From NCBI GenBank assembly GCA_022508525.1, contig JAFLVA010000001.1:26879-90878 (forward strand): a DNA stretch of 64,000 bases, read 5' to 3'. Positions 20,927-35,100 of the stretch are shown here, one piece after another. The stretch comes from Erysipelotrichales bacterium (lineage in GTDB: Bacteria; Bacillota_I; Bacilli_A; RFN20; CAG-826). The notes under the pieces were generated by a model that had not been told where the DNA came from, ran no database searches, and saw nothing but the letters and a program-made list of their open reading frames with translations. Positions within the stretch are counted from its first letter, which is position 1. The number at the start of each line of letters is the position of its first letter. The translations under genes were made by a program, and so were the position numbers.

Positions 20927-21859
20927 GTGAGGAGACATTTTAAAACTAGAAATAAATATTATGAGCATATTCCGCAGGAAAAATTTGAAGGCGTAGCCTT
21001 AAAAGTATCTTTAGTAAGTATTATTGGTAATTTTGTATTATCGCTTTTTAAAATGTTTGCAGGCATTTTTGCCCATTCTAGTGCAATGGTGAGTGATGCA
21101 ATTCATTCGATTTCTGATGTTTTTAGCAGCATTATTGTAATAATTGGTGTGAAAATTTCATCAAAAGCTTCTGATAAAGATCACCCGTATGGGCATGAGC
21201 GTTTTGAATGTGTGGCGGCAATTGTATTAGCAGTAATTTTATTAATTTCTGGTTTATTTATTGGATATAACGCTATTGATAAAATTATTTCTGGTGATTT
21301 TGAAACACTTAAAATTCCGGGAATTGTAGCTTTAATTGCTGCAATTGTATCAATTGTTGCTAAAGAGATAATGTACTGGTATACAAGATTTCATGCAAAG
21401 CGTTTAGACTCTGGTGCCCTAATGGCAGATGCTTGGCATCATCGAAGTGATGCTTTGTCATCAGTTGGAGCATTAATTGGTATTGTATTTGCAAGAATGG
21501 GATATCCAATCATAGATGTTATTGCAAGCTTTATAATTTGTTTGTTCATTATAAAAGCATCAGTTGATATTTTTAAAGATGCGATTAATAAAATGGTTGA
21601 TCGTTCGTGCAATATAGAAACTGAAAAGAGCATTATACAATGTGCTGAAAAACAACCGGGTGTAATTAGGGTTGATTTAATTAATACACGCATGTTTGGA
21701 AATAGAATTTATGTAGATATTGAAATATGTGCCCAACGTGATATTAGCCTTGCTGAAGGACATGATATTGCTAGTTCAGTTCATGATGCAATTGAAACAT
21801 CATTTCCAAAAGTGAAGCATGTTATGGTTCACGTTAATCCATCTGAAGAAAATAAATAG
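20927..21859 (+). CDS. Cation diffusion facilitator family transporter (CzcD-like)
   Basis: 310 aa metal/proton antiporter. Six membrane segments; the metal-site residues appear as SDAIHSISDV (HxxxD in helix 2) and DAWHHRSDALSS (HxxxD in helix 5), followed by the C-terminal cytoplasmic ferredoxin-like dimerisation domain (IRVDLINTRMFGNRIYVDIEI). The start is a GTG with GGTGAT upstream. The NiCo riboswitch directly upstream points to Ni2+/Co2+ (or Fe2+/Zn2+) export as its job. Metal specificity is inferred from that context. Confidence 0.92.
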   Translation: MRRHFKTRNKYYEHIPQEKFEGVALKVSLVSIIGNFVLSLFKMFAGIFAHSSAMVSDAIHSISDVFSSIIVIIGVKISSKASDKDHPYGHERFECVAAIVLAVILLISGLFIGYNAIDKIISGDFETLKIPGIVALIAAIVSIVAKEIMYWYTRFHAKRLDSGALMADAWHHRSDALSSVGALIGIVFARMGYPIIDVIASFIICLFIIKASVDIFKDAINKMVDRSCNIETEKSIIQCAEKQPGVIRVDLINTRMFGNRIYVDIEICAQRDISLAEGHDIASSVHDAIETSFPKVKHVMVHVNPSEENK

Positions 21860-22193: not shown

Positions 22194-22925
22194 ATGGAAT
22201 TTGATGTAAGAGATAACGGCAATGGAAGTTATACGGTTAGTAGCAAATATGATGCAGATGGAACAGGTGGAAAAGTATTTTTAATTATATGTAGCATTAT
22301 TGCGTATATTGCTACAATTATTGGGTTGCTTACGAGCACATTTGTAGTCAAAGATATTCCTTATGCATTAATTATCTTGATATTTTTAGATGTATTAGTA
22401 ATCTCACCAATTATAATTTATCCAATTGTTCGAAAAAATGGAAAAAGTTTTTCAAGTGTACTTTTATCCATTCTTAGATTTGTAGGACGATATGCTTATA
22501 TTCCATTTTCTATAATGTACATTGTATTATGGATTTTCTTTTTTAATAAGATTACTGGAACGGCCTTTATAACGCTATTCTTCTTTAGTATGTATGGTAT
22601 ATATTATTTTCCATATTATATGTTAAGAACAGCACGTAAACATAATTCAAGAATGATGTCAATTTTAACACTTGTGGCAATTTATTCTAGTATAACAGCA
22701 ATGGTAATAGTAGCAGCATATAATCAAATGGATGGATATTACGCTATGGTGCTTCCAACAACATTAGCTTTGTTTGCATTAATATCAGTTCCAATTAGTA
22801 ACGTTTATTATAAAAAACACAATTCAAGAAAAGGTGCATTAAAACTACGTACCATCTTTATAATATTTGGCATTTCATTATTTGTACTTGCATTTGCTTT
22901 AGCTGTTAGAATCAGTTTATCTTAA
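22194..22925 (+). CDS. Polytopic membrane protein of unknown function
   Basis: 243 aa. A short cytoplasmic N-terminus (MEFDVRDNGNGSYTVSSKYD) precedes about seven hydrophobic segments; no motif recognised. Basic loops (TARKHNSR, YYKKHNSRKG) mark the cytoplasmic side. It is a single-gene unit between a structured leader and a terminator. The leader suggests regulated expression, possibly by a small molecule, but nothing in the protein shows a substrate. Confidence 0.65.
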   Translation: MEFDVRDNGNGSYTVSSKYDADGTGGKVFLIICSIIAYIATIIGLLTSTFVVKDIPYALIILIFLDVLVISPIIIYPIVRKNGKSFSSVLLSILRFVGRYAYIPFSIMYIVLWIFFFNKITGTAFITLFFFSMYGIYYFPYYMLRTARKHNSRMMSILTLVAIYSSITAMVIVAAYNQMDGYYAMVLPTTLALFALISVPISNVYYKKHNSRKGALKLRTIFIIFGISLFVLAFALAVRISLS

Positions 22926-30604: not shown

Positions 30605-31216
30605 TTATAGCAAGTTAGTATTTAAATCAATGTTTGCTTCCTTACAAAATTGTTCATAGAATGTAACTAAAAATTGCGTGCGTTCTATGGACATTTCTTT
30701 TGCCTCAGGAGTATTTAATAAATTGTGTAAGCGAAATAATTTTTCGTGAAAATGGGCCAATGTATTTGGCCTTTTTTCATCTAAGCAATAAAAAGGATTA
30801 TTTTTAGAACCACCATATGCAAATGTACGAGCGACTCCAATAGCACCAATTGCATCCAAACGATCAGCATCTTGGGCGATTTTCGCTTCAATTGAAATTT
30901 TATTATTTATATTTGGATTTTTGCTAAATGATATTGTATCTATGTTTTTTAATATTTGTTTTATTATTTTCTCATCTAATTTAAGTGTTTTAAGAAAGTC
31001 TTTAACATTTGAATTTGTCGAAGTTTTAAGTTTTTTATCCTCAATATCATGTAGCAATACGGTCATTTGCAAAACAAACAAGTCACAATTTTGATAATTT
31101 TTAGCTATGGCATTAGCGTTATTTAAAACTCTTAAAACATGGTAAAAATCATGCGCCACATCATTTTGGCCCATTTTTTCTTTTACATATAATTGTGTTT
31201 TTTCTAAAGTGTTCAT
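30605..31216 (-). CDS. HD-domain phosphohydrolase
   Basis: 203 aa. HD metal motifs in order: HDFYHVLRV (first His), LLHDIEDKK (HD doublet), and the distal QDADRLDAIGAIGVARTFAYGG, which is typical of the YedJ-like HD group. Such enzymes hydrolyse nucleotides or phosphate esters; the substrate is unknown. It lies 18 nt downstream of the antiporter gene on the same strand, so it may be part of the fluoride-controlled unit. Its end is 2 nt from the convergent SDR gene. Confidence 0.85.
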   Translation of the reverse strand: MNTLEKTQLYVKEKMGQNDVAHDFYHVLRVLNNANAIAKNYQNCDLFVLQMTVLLHDIEDKKLKTSTNSNVKDFLKTLKLDEKIIKQILKNIDTISFSKNPNINNKISIEAKIAQDADRLDAIGAIGVARTFAYGGSKNNPFYCLDEKRPNTLAHFHEKLFRLHNLLNTPEAKEMSIERTQFLVTFYEQFCKEANIDLNTNLL

Positions 31217-31234: not shown

Positions 31235-32434
31235 TTATTCATTACTGTTTTCAAGTGAAACTCGATTAAGAAATTTTTTATATGTTAAATCAATTAAGAA
31301 TGCACCTAAAGGCGCAGTTATTAAAATTGCCATAACCGCAACAGTTAAAACGATGTTTCCACATTCTAGTCCTAACGATAATGGAATTCCGCCGATAGCA
31401 GCTTGAACAGTGGCTTTTGGAATGTAGGAAATCATACAAAATACTTTTTCTTTGAAAGTAAGTTTTGTGCATATCAAACATATAAATACGCCAATAATTC
31501 TAAAGCATAATACTAATAAAATTAACAATATTGCAGGTAAAGCAGTAGTTGAAACAAATTTAAGATCAATCGTCGCTCCCACTAGCACAAAAAGTATTAT
31601 TTCTGCACCTACCCAAAGTTTGTTAAATTTAAGTGATAATCTTGTAGATGCTTCTTTGTGATATTGTTGCATAGCTATTCCCATAAACATAATGGCAATT
31701 AAAGCTGAGAATGTTATAACTGTAGTTAATTTGTCTTCTATAGAGTTCAAGATAAAAGCAATAGAAAGAATTATTATAACTTTTACTGTATCGCGCATAT
31801 GGACTTTAGCGAAAAACTTAGCTAATAAAAAACCAATTAAAAAACCGATTAATATGCCGAGAACAATGGATATTGGAATGTTTACAAAACTAAGAATAGA
31901 AACTTCTTTACCTTGGCCTAAGCCTAAGAATGCTGTAAATAGAACAATTACAAAAACATCATCAACAGACGCACCAGCTAAGATTAGTTGAGGAATACTA
32001 TGGTCTTTACCATATCCTTCATCGATTAGTTTTATCATCTTTGGTACGATTACTGCAGGAGATACTGCAGCGACAACCGCACCGATTATTGCTGCCTCAA
32101 TAACTGATACATTAAGTATTAATGGTGCAAATATAATCATACCTACTATTTCAAAAGCCGCAGGAACGAAACACATTAATATTGCGGGTCTACCAACTTT
32201 TTTTAAATCCGACCATTTAAGTGTTAAACCAGCACGAGTTAATATTATAATTAACGCAATTCGTCTCAATTCTGATGATATATCTAGTATTGATGGGTCA
32301 ATCAGCTTTAAAACACTTGGTCCTAGTAGAATACCAGTTAATATCATACCTACTAAACTAGGTAATTTTATTTTTTTACATAACCATCCAAGTGACATAC
32401 CAATTATTAGAATTAAAGCTATACTTAATAACAT
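31235..32434 (-). CDS. Cation:proton antiporter (CPA family) under fluoride riboswitch
   Basis: 399 aa with about 12 membrane segments and no soluble regulatory domain. The N-terminal half has GWLCKKIKLPSLVGMILTGILLGP, a hallmark of Kef/NhaX-type CPA carriers, and the active-site region reads GASVDDVFVIVLFTAF (two Asp). Such carriers exchange Na+ or K+ for protons. The leader upstream is a fluoride riboswitch, so the carrier probably helps the cell tolerate fluoride or the acid load that comes with HF entry. A ribosome site AAAGGAGG precedes the ATG. Confidence 0.88.
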   Translation of the reverse strand: MLLSIALILIIGMSLGWLCKKIKLPSLVGMILTGILLGPSVLKLIDPSILDISSELRRIALIIILTRAGLTLKWSDLKKVGRPAILMCFVPAAFEIVGMIIFAPLILNVSVIEAAIIGAVVAAVSPAVIVPKMIKLIDEGYGKDHSIPQLILAGASVDDVFVIVLFTAFLGLGQGKEVSILSFVNIPISIVLGILIGFLIGFLLAKFFAKVHMRDTVKVIIILSIAFILNSIEDKLTTVITFSALIAIMFMGIAMQQYHKEASTRLSLKFNKLWVGAEIILFVLVGATIDLKFVSTTALPAILLILLVLCFRIIGVFICLICTKLTFKEKVFCMISYIPKATVQAAIGGIPLSLGLECGNIVLTVAVMAILITAPLGAFLIDLTYKKFLNRVSLENSNE

Positions 32435-32451
32435 AAAATTCCTCCTTTAAC

Positions 32452-32540
32452 AAAAAAGGCCGAGACTCCTGCCATAAAAGCAGAAGTCATCAGCTAATAA
32501 GCGGTTTTAGTAAAAATACTATGGGAGAACCTCATTCCCA
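32452..32540 (-). ncRNA. Fluoride riboswitch (crcB motif) with terminator
   Basis: Read on the minus strand from 32539: GGGAATGAGG, TTCT, CCC, a hairpin TAGTA/TACTA, AAACCGCT, TATT, AGCTGATGACTTCTGC. These match the fluoride-aptamer layout (GGG..ATGAGG..CCC..AAACCGC..GGCTGATG..CTTCTAC). The 3' strand then forms a terminator: GCTGA-T-GACTTCTGC pairs with GCAGGAGTC-TCGGC (one bulge), followed by six T (32452-32457 on plus). Fluoride binding would keep the 3' strand in the aptamer and allow transcription of the antiporter. Confidence 0.88.
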
Positions 32541-32545
32541 AAAAA

Positions 32546-32573
32546 ATTATAACATACAACAGTATTTTTGCAA
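32546..32573 (-). promoter_or_regulatory. Extended -10 promoter driving the fluoride leader
   Basis: Minus strand: TTGCAA (32568-32573), 16-nt spacer, and extended -10 TGTTATAAT (32546-32554). The start point would be near 32540, immediately before the aptamer. Confidence 0.7.
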
Positions 32574-32660
32574 TTAGATTATTTTTTCAAAAGGTGTATT
32601 TTTAAGTTTTATATTAAATACTAATTTAATATATGATAAAATATTTTTGAGGTGACAGAA

Positions 32661-34409
32661 GTGATTAATGCAGATGATTTATTGGAACCTAGAAAAACGT
32701 ATGCGCGAAAGTTAAAGGATTTGCATCACAAAAATTCTGAGGACTATTTTGATGAATTAGTAAAAAAATCGGGAATAAATGTTGAAGAAAACAAACAAAC
32801 TATAAAGAAATTAAATAGTGTAAACGAAGAAAGAAATAAATTGAAATCTCAGAAAAACAAATTTGCGTCTTTAAAAGTATTTTTAATTGTTTTAATTATT
32901 TTATTTTTCCTTGGTATCGTAATTGATGTTATTCATGCATTATATTCCGATACACTATGGCTAAATATTGTGGTTGGAATAATTATGCTTGGAGCAGCAA
33001 TCGGATTTATATTCTTATTATCAAAAAACATTTTAAAAAAACTTAAGTTATTCAACGCGGAGCTTGAAACCTTAGATAAAGAAGCGGCAAAACTTTTAGA
33101 ACAAGCCTATATGCAAATGAATCCACTTAACGCATTATATGGTTGGAATATTTGCACACAAATTTCAAATAAGTCTTGTCCACTAATTGAACTTGATCGA
33201 TATTTCAATCCACGTAGATATGAGTATTTGCATGAGTGTTTTGGTTTTAGTGAGGAAGAGGATGAAAATATTTCGACAGTTTTTGTCCAATCTGGTTCCA
33301 TTTTAGGAAATCCATTCTTATTTCAAAAACGATATATTCAAGAGATGGTAGATAAATCATATACAGGTTCAATTGTTATTACTTGGACAACTTCTCATTA
33401 TTCAAATGGTAAATGGGAAACTAGACATCATAGTCAAACTTTAACAGCGACAATATATCGACCAGCTCCAATATATTATTTAGATACATGGCTAATTTAC
33501 GGAAATGAAGCAGCTCCAAATCTATCATTTTCTCGTAAGCCATCAAATGCAAATTCTATGAATGAAAAAGCAATTAATAAGTATGTTAAAAGCCAGGATA
33601 AAGTATTAGACAAAATGGTTGAAAAAGATATTGATGATAAAGACGGTAATGGTTCTCAATTTACGCGCTTGGCCAACACTAAATTTGAGGCGTTGTTCCA
33701 TGCGCTTGATCGTAATAATGAAGTTGAGTTTAGATTACTATTTACACCATTGGCACAAAAAAACATGCTAGATTTAATTGAAAATAAAGAACCTTATGGA
33801 GATGATTTTTCCTTTATTAAAAAGAAGAAAATCAATTACATTAAAAGTGGACATATTCAACATTTTGATTTAACTGCTGATCCTAAAAAATTTGTTCACT
33901 ATGATTATGAGTTTGCAAGGAATAATTTCACTAAAATAAATGATGAATATTTTAAGAATATTTTCTTTGATTTTGCTCCATTAATTTCAATACCTTTATA
34001 TCAACAGCACAAACCAAAAGAATATATATATAAAGATAATTATCCATCAAATATTACAAAATTCGAACATGAAGTTTTGGCAAACGCATTTAATCATAAT
34101 CAACTTAAACATCCAGAATCAACAACAGATACAATTTTAAAGGCTAGAGCTGCTTATAAAGAAGGAGAAAGAGATATTGTGAATATTGATGCTCATTCGT
34201 TTAAGGCAATTCCGCGGGTTGAGTATGTATCAAAGATGGGCGGAGATGGTAGGATGCATATGGTGCCGGTAAATTATTATGAATATTTACCTTTAAAACA
34301 AACTACTTCAATGGTTGCACAATATGAAAGTGATAATTCACAAATTAATATTAATAATGATATAATAAAACAAAGAGGATTATTAGCTTATTTAAATAAA
34401 GCTCGATAA
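32661..34409 (+). CDS. Membrane protein of unknown function next to lemA
   Basis: 582 aa. Residues 1-70 are charged and helical (coiled-coil-like), followed by two hydrophobic segments (LKVFLIVLIILFFLGIVIDV and an adjacent one), another charged helix, then a soluble domain of more than 400 residues with no motif recognised. The GTG at 32661 is preceded by GAGGTG; the in-frame GTG at 32652 overlaps that site. The lemA gene starts 31 nt downstream, suggesting a two-gene membrane unit. The arrangement resembles LemA/DUF3137-type pairs, but similarity to DUF3137 could not be established by eye. Confidence 0.6.
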   Translation: MINADDLLEPRKTYARKLKDLHHKNSEDYFDELVKKSGINVEENKQTIKKLNSVNEERNKLKSQKNKFASLKVFLIVLIILFFLGIVIDVIHALYSDTLWLNIVVGIIMLGAAIGFIFLLSKNILKKLKLFNAELETLDKEAAKLLEQAYMQMNPLNALYGWNICTQISNKSCPLIELDRYFNPRRYEYLHECFGFSEEEDENISTVFVQSGSILGNPFLFQKRYIQEMVDKSYTGSIVITWTTSHYSNGKWETRHHSQTLTATIYRPAPIYYLDTWLIYGNEAAPNLSFSRKPSNANSMNEKAINKYVKSQDKVLDKMVEKDIDDKDGNGSQFTRLANTKFEALFHALDRNNEVEFRLLFTPLAQKNMLDLIENKEPYGDDFSFIKKKKINYIKSGHIQHFDLTADPKKFVHYDYEFARNNFTKINDEYFKNIFFDFAPLISIPLYQQHKPKEYIYKDNYPSNITKFEHEVLANAFNHNQLKHPESTTDTILKARAAYKEGERDIVNIDAHSFKAIPRVEYVSKMGGDGRMHMVPVNYYEYLPLKQTTSMVAQYESDNSQININNDIIKQRGLLAYLNKAR

Positions 34410-34440
34410 TCTAGAACTAGTACTAAAGGAGGAATTACAA

Positions 34441-35100
34441 ATGGCTAATGAATTAGATGAAATGACAGGACCAGTAAATCAAGAAGGAAGAGATGTTAAC
34501 GTAATCGAAAAACAAATTCCTGTAAAAGTAGGAGCAGGATCTGTTGTTTTTGAAGTACTTTTATGGGTTTTAGGAATTATTCCAGGAATTGTATTTTTAT
34601 TTAAGAAAAGAAGTGCAAAATCATATTTGGCAAAGTTACAACAAAAACTTCAACATGATGCTTCTCAAATTGATAATTACTTAGAACAAAGAGTAGTTAT
34701 ATTATCTAATGTTGCTAAATTGCTTGAAAAGGCAGTTGACTTAGATAAATCAACATTTACAGATATTGCTGCATTACGTTCTGGTAAATCAAATGGTGAT
34801 TTAAATGAAGTTGCTTCTGAAATTGATAAAGTAAACATGAAATTGAATGTTGCTGTAGAAAATTATCCAGAATTAAAAGCACACCAAGAGATTGCAGATG
34901 CAATGCAACAAAATTCTTATTTACAAAAAGAAATTACTGCCGCACGTGAAGTTTATAACGATACAGTAAGACAATGGAATACGGAAATATTTGCTTGGCC
35001 AACTAAGATGATTGTAGCAGCTAAACAAGGATACACTACAAGAATTCCATTCACTGCATCTTCAGAAACAAAGGCTCGCGCAAGAGAAACATTCTTCTAA
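34441..35100 (+). CDS. lemA: LemA family protein
   Basis: 219 aa. One membrane segment near the N-terminus (VVFEVLLWVLGIIPGIVFLF) followed by a helical domain with LAKLQQKLQHDASQIDNYLEQRVVILSNVAKLLEKAV and the C-terminal ARETFF tail common in Firmicutes relatives. The KEITAAREVYNDTVRQWNTEI segment is the typical LemA core. Role unknown; LemA proteins often sit with membrane proteins or proteases. Second gene after the 582-aa membrane protein, with a good AAAGGAGG site, followed by a terminator. Confidence 0.88.
   Translation: MANELDEMTGPVNQEGRDVNVIEKQIPVKVGAGSVVFEVLLWVLGIIPGIVFLFKKRSAKSYLAKLQQKLQHDASQIDNYLEQRVVILSNVAKLLEKAVDLDKSTFTDIAALRSGKSNGDLNEVASEIDKVNMKLNVAVENYPELKAHQEIADAMQQNSYLQKEITAAREVYNDTVRQWNTEIFAWPTKMIVAAKQGYTTRIPFTASSETKARARETFF

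Follow-up and report, generated by a model that had tools for sequence, protein, structure and literature searches.

A promoter, a fluoride riboswitch aptamer, an intrinsic terminator, a predicted cation/proton antiporter gene, and a putative HD hydrolase gene follow one another, in this order, on the minus strand at 32573-30605 of the 64,000-nt stretch of an Erysipelotrichales bacterium genome analyzed here (hereafter, the window). The crcB-motif aptamer proposed in the initial annotation was recovered with the Rfam covariance model RF01734 as a match of full model length on the minus strand (32548-32474; 47.4 bits, gathering cut-off 34 bits; E 4.9e-10), and a whole-genome scan showed it to be the sole RF01734 match in the genome. 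The extended -10 promoter ahead of the aptamer and the terminator sharing the aptamer 3′ strand were also present as that annotation had described them. The promoter is of the sigma-70 type (32573-32546, minus strand; TTGCAA-16-TGnTATAAT) and has 10 of 12 consensus matches, a result that a motif scan by itself does not raise above chance; its support comes from spacing, because the end of the -10 box at 32546 puts the expected transcription start at about 32539, the first base of aptamer P1. The terminator, which forms the expression platform (32494-32452, minus strand), comprises 14 bp with one bulged U (arms GCUGA.GACUUCUGC and GCAGGAGUC.UCGGC) and then U6, and its 5′ end lies within the aptamer 3′ strand. 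The pseudoknot of the aptamer pairs GAGGU with ACUUC, both strands deviating from the Rfam consensus with pairing kept, and the ACUUC strand is common to the pseudoknot and the terminator. Since the terminator hairpin uses the 3′ strand of the aptamer, the leader is of the transcriptional ON type. By sequence reading, a Shine-Dalgarno motif of the antiporter gene, AGGAGGA, lies at 32440-32446 (minus strand).

Covariation was analyzed in an alignment of 26 riboswitches, consisting of the window riboswitch and 25 found ahead of related antiporters. Paired cells made up 92.4% of the alignment, compared with 84.3% in shuffles, and two-sided changes occurred at 9 pairs, compared with 4.1 in shuffles, a level reached by 0 of 500 shuffles. 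The signal was lost in a control in which pairing partners were slid. The pseudoknot helix was 96.9% paired, with two-sided changes in three of its five pairs. A terminator overlapping the aptamer is common, not universal, among fluoride riboswitches; a terminator-like hairpin was detected in 81 of the 86 class loci scanned and began inside the aptamer 3′ strand in 79 of the 86. Two loci of the order retain good riboswitches (~50 bits; L172 in G035 and L173 in G047) with the antiporter broken or gone, as would be expected if the riboswitch were a decayed remnant and the antiporter were expressed whatever the fluoride level. For the window, however, that explanation is highly improbable, given that the match is full length and that the pseudoknot, terminator, promoter, and open reading frame (ORF) are all intact. 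The riboswitch in the window is genuine: the architecture of its leader can be read directly from the DNA, and fluoride binding is what membership of the riboswitch family would predict.

The first gene behind the leader (31235-32434, minus strand) encodes a 399-aa protein belonging to PF00999, not to PF00654 or PF02537, in keeping with the CPA-type antiporter named in the initial annotation. NCBIfam models gave K+/H+ antiporter matches only, all of them below threshold. The best solved structures by sequence were those of NHA2 (E 5.4e-37), compared with about 6e-5 for NapA. An AlphaFold model of the protein (pLDDT 87.5) also had NHA2 as its top fold matches (E 1.4e-16), with NhaP-type structures ranking so closely behind that fold alone does not separate the two types. 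NHA2 binds its ion through two aspartates; an Arg431-Glu214 pair takes the place of the lysine of the electrogenic NapA and NhaA, and at the helix break Lys459 and Thr461 occupy the positions of the usual charged pair. NHA2 exchange is electroneutral, a property associated with R431 and E214, and only NHA2 members have E214 (PMC8850199). This ion-site set (DD motif, Glu214-Arg431, Lys459, and Thr461; bison numbering) is present in the window protein as D158 D159, E95-R312, K340, and T342, and these residues are invariant in the 111 sequences of the antiporter alignment. Three further CPA antiporters from the order are NapA-like and keep the DD motif but have a residue other than Glu at position 95, K at 312, and Q at 340. 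Because these control antiporters lack E95, R312, and K340, the riboswitch goes with the NHA2-like branch. The window protein is thus closest to NHA2/SLC9B2 in sequence, modeled fold, and ion-site residues. It aligns from about NHA2 residue 125-140 and lacks the additional N-terminal helix found in mammalian NHA2 (14 TM), and for that reason we label it NHA2-like rather than NHA2.

Na+/H+ antiporters are the next-most common genes associated with fluoride riboswitches after exporters (Nat Commun review, PMC11139923), K+ and Cl- transport genes were named by the original motif paper (PMC2864571), and a fluoride riboswitch with a Na+/H+ antiporter gene is attributed to Baker 2012 in PMC11139923. 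Among 395 genomes sampled from the class of the host, 98 had a riboswitch match. The first gene was a relative of the window antiporter in 89 of 98 loci read (full length in 83), and a frameshifted copy of the same antiporter led one more. CLC was the first gene in two loci, and CrcB, a NifU-like gene, and an HD protein gene in one each; the remaining loci were two probably false matches and one without a gene nearby. Riboswitch matches at L035 and L170, which precede EngA-like GTPase genes, are weak (25.7 bits) and probably false. A riboswitch lies directly ahead of the antiporter in all eight order genomes that encode a close antiporter, and ahead of 19 of 24 antiporter loci picked by protein similarity alone; four of the five similar antiporters with no riboswitch in front sit closely behind unrelated genes. 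The antiporter is therefore not the exceptional target that the initial annotation had implied, but the dominant one in the host's class, with about 90 of 98 loci, and the published associations are in agreement (PMC11139923, PMC11477304). Two loci in the sample have unusual arrangements. At L158 (G181:C6:22553-22622 and 22780-22849), two riboswitch matches of equal score stand about 230 nt apart before one antiporter, possibly a tandem switch or a duplication. At L143 (G238, about 300-2230), a 41-bit fluoride riboswitch precedes two genes, the first NifU-like and the second with a GGGTGRT motif, and three riboswitch matches are found in that genome.

A family search of the host genome detected neither CrcB/Fluc (PF02537) nor CLC (PF00654), in an assembly that is 92% complete, so that an exporter could be missing from it. 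Six other riboswitch-antiporter genomes of the order are likewise without CrcB/Fluc and CLC. Among order genomes with the antiporter, CLC was found in one of eight (G014) and CrcB in none; among those without it, CLC was found in 12 of 50 and CrcB above the cut-off in 0 of 50. In 24 wider genomes, CrcB was found in none and CLC of some type (CLC-F or other) in 16. Scarcity of exporters is thus a trait of the order, and since it is common there even without the antiporter, we dropped exporter absence as proof that the antiporter substitutes for them. With no Fluc and no CLC seen, the antiporter does appear to be the only riboswitch-controlled fluoride response of this genome. Where CrcB and CLC are lacking, no other gene was found under riboswitch control, and most riboswitches of the class stand ahead of this antiporter; this could mean that the protein itself exports fluoride, by F-/H+ exchange or by moving F- with a cation, replacing Fluc and CLC-F. 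We consider this improbable: the invariance of all NHA2 cation/proton residues points to ordinary cation exchange, many relatives without any exporter are also without the antiporter gene, and we know of no CPA-family member that carries halides.

The second gene (30605-31216, minus strand) encodes a putative YpgQ/YedJ-like HD-domain phosphohydrolase (PF01966). It follows the antiporter gene, as the initial annotation stated, although the range given there (31235-32573) took in the antiporter and leader and left the HD gene outside. The gap between the two genes is only 18 nt, which makes cotranscription likely, and no terminator was found within it. The HD signature H...HD...D is present on sequence reading (H26, H56-D57, and DADRLD), and the protein matches Bacillus subtilis YpgQ (PDB 5dqv; E 3.4e-29), an HD-domain protein of comparable size that hydrolyses NTPs and dNTPs (PMC8177086); it is probably a nucleotide pyrophosphohydrolase. 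The order of antiporter followed by HD gene was found only in the window species and one sister species (L006/G003; 76% identity), and of the other riboswitch or antiporter loci read, over 100 in number, none had the HD gene. A search for a shared operon partner found this HD gene confined to the genus and second genes differing from genome to genome. The HD gene is thus a genus-level addition, and because the gene order is limited to two sister species, the link of the HD enzyme to fluoride suggested earlier is weak and is not supported beyond one genus. In G156, a different, unrelated HD-domain gene (L166, 2804-3334, minus strand) lies directly after a fluoride riboswitch that scores below threshold (32.5 bits); in the sister genome G444 (L145), that other HD gene lies ~290 nt or more past the end of an antiporter gene, as if the antiporter of the G156 locus had been lost. 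The G156 arrangement, the 18-nt gap, and the conserved order in the sister species would suit a dedicated two-gene fluoride module in which the HD protein removes a product of fluoride inhibition, whether nucleotide- or pyrophosphate-linked. Such a module is nevertheless unlikely, as other antiporter loci have variable partners without the HD gene, and HD homologs elsewhere in the order are not beside the antiporter; G021, for example, has both genes, far apart.

In a tree built with a quick method, the antiporters of the window and sister species group within a clade of gut Clostridia of the Lachnospiraceae type, and by the same method the antiporters of the host family require at least six changes on well-supported branches. 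Four genus members were searched, and two of them lack the antiporter gene. The cassette has probably moved horizontally. On the plus strand at 32652-35100, the window encodes a divergent MAG1210-family protein and then a LemA-family protein, and the cassette of the sister species (L006) has flanking ORFs of the same sizes. Elsewhere in the window, a NiCo riboswitch (RF02683; 20761-20842, plus strand; 63.7 bits) lies ahead of an ORF (20927-21859, plus strand) with a product resembling a CDF-type cation efflux protein.

Fluoride acidifies cells: HF enters through the membrane and frees H+ inside, and F- is trapped and builds up in proportion to the pH gradient (PMC11139923). We think it likely that the locus answers this acid load through a fluoride-ON switch that controls electroneutral exchange by the NHA2-like antiporter. 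Transcription from the promoter would begin at the aptamer; with Mg-bound fluoride in the aptamer, the pseudoknot would hold the ACUUC 3′ strand, the terminator would be blocked, and the antiporter gene would be transcribed, probably along with the HD gene. Without fluoride, the terminator would form and halt the polymerase. Because the NHA2 ion-site residues are invariant, the antiporter is predicted to exchange Na+ (or Li+ or K+) for H+ electroneutrally. As HF releases H+ in the cytoplasm, the induced exchange could reset cytoplasmic pH. In one direction, H+ export driven by the Na+ gradient would relieve the acid load; in the other, H+ import with cation expulsion would diminish the pH gradient responsible for trapping F-, and with it cell fluoride. 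The ion and pH homeostasis response envisaged in the initial annotation fits this predicted exchange.

More speculatively, and in our judgment with a low probability, a horizontally moving, riboswitch-controlled NHA2-like antiporter may suffice alone as a fluoride defence where Fluc and CLC-F are absent, through collapse of the pH gradient that traps F- or through transport of fluoride itself; fluoride resistance would then have a third route. The exporter-less genomes offer a clean setting for asking whether antiport alone protects, and the NHA2-like identity supplies a template structure, predicts an electroneutral stoichiometry, and pinpoints residues for mutation. The finding also places bacterial relatives of human NHA2, an exchanger linked to hypertension and diabetes, in a physiological context. 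A literature search for fluoride together with NhaP, NapA, or SLC9B found no link to NHA2, and in the literature searched there was no report of a riboswitch-associated Na+/H+ antiporter tested in fluoride defence. The pairing of riboswitch and antiporter was already known; the useful points added here are that the antiporter is NHA2-like, that it dominates the class, and that no exporter was detected in its genome.

Compared with the antiporter riboswitches of Baker 2012, as cited in PMC11139923, the window locus is alike in its aptamer, pseudoknot, terminator overlap, and antiporter target, whereas its antiporter stands by itself, neither Fluc nor CLC having been detected in the genome, and can now be placed in an NHA2-like subfamily. 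In Clostridium difficile CD0656-CD0657, a fluoride riboswitch precedes a CLC-type exporter gene and then a gene annotated as an NhaP-type antiporter (PMC11477304); a fluoride riboswitch upstream of an antiporter is common to both loci, but in the window the antiporter, not CLC, is the first gene. NapA and other CPA2 antiporters have a similar fold and the DD motif, with lysine at the R312 position in electrogenic members. Mammalian NHA2/SLC9B2 (PDB 7b4l and 7p1i) is the best match by both sequence and fold and has in common with the window protein the DD motif, the Glu-Arg salt-bridge pair, and Lys and Thr at the helix break; the window protein differs in being without the extra N-terminal helix, in having Tyr for Trp456, and in being bacterial and riboswitch-controlled.
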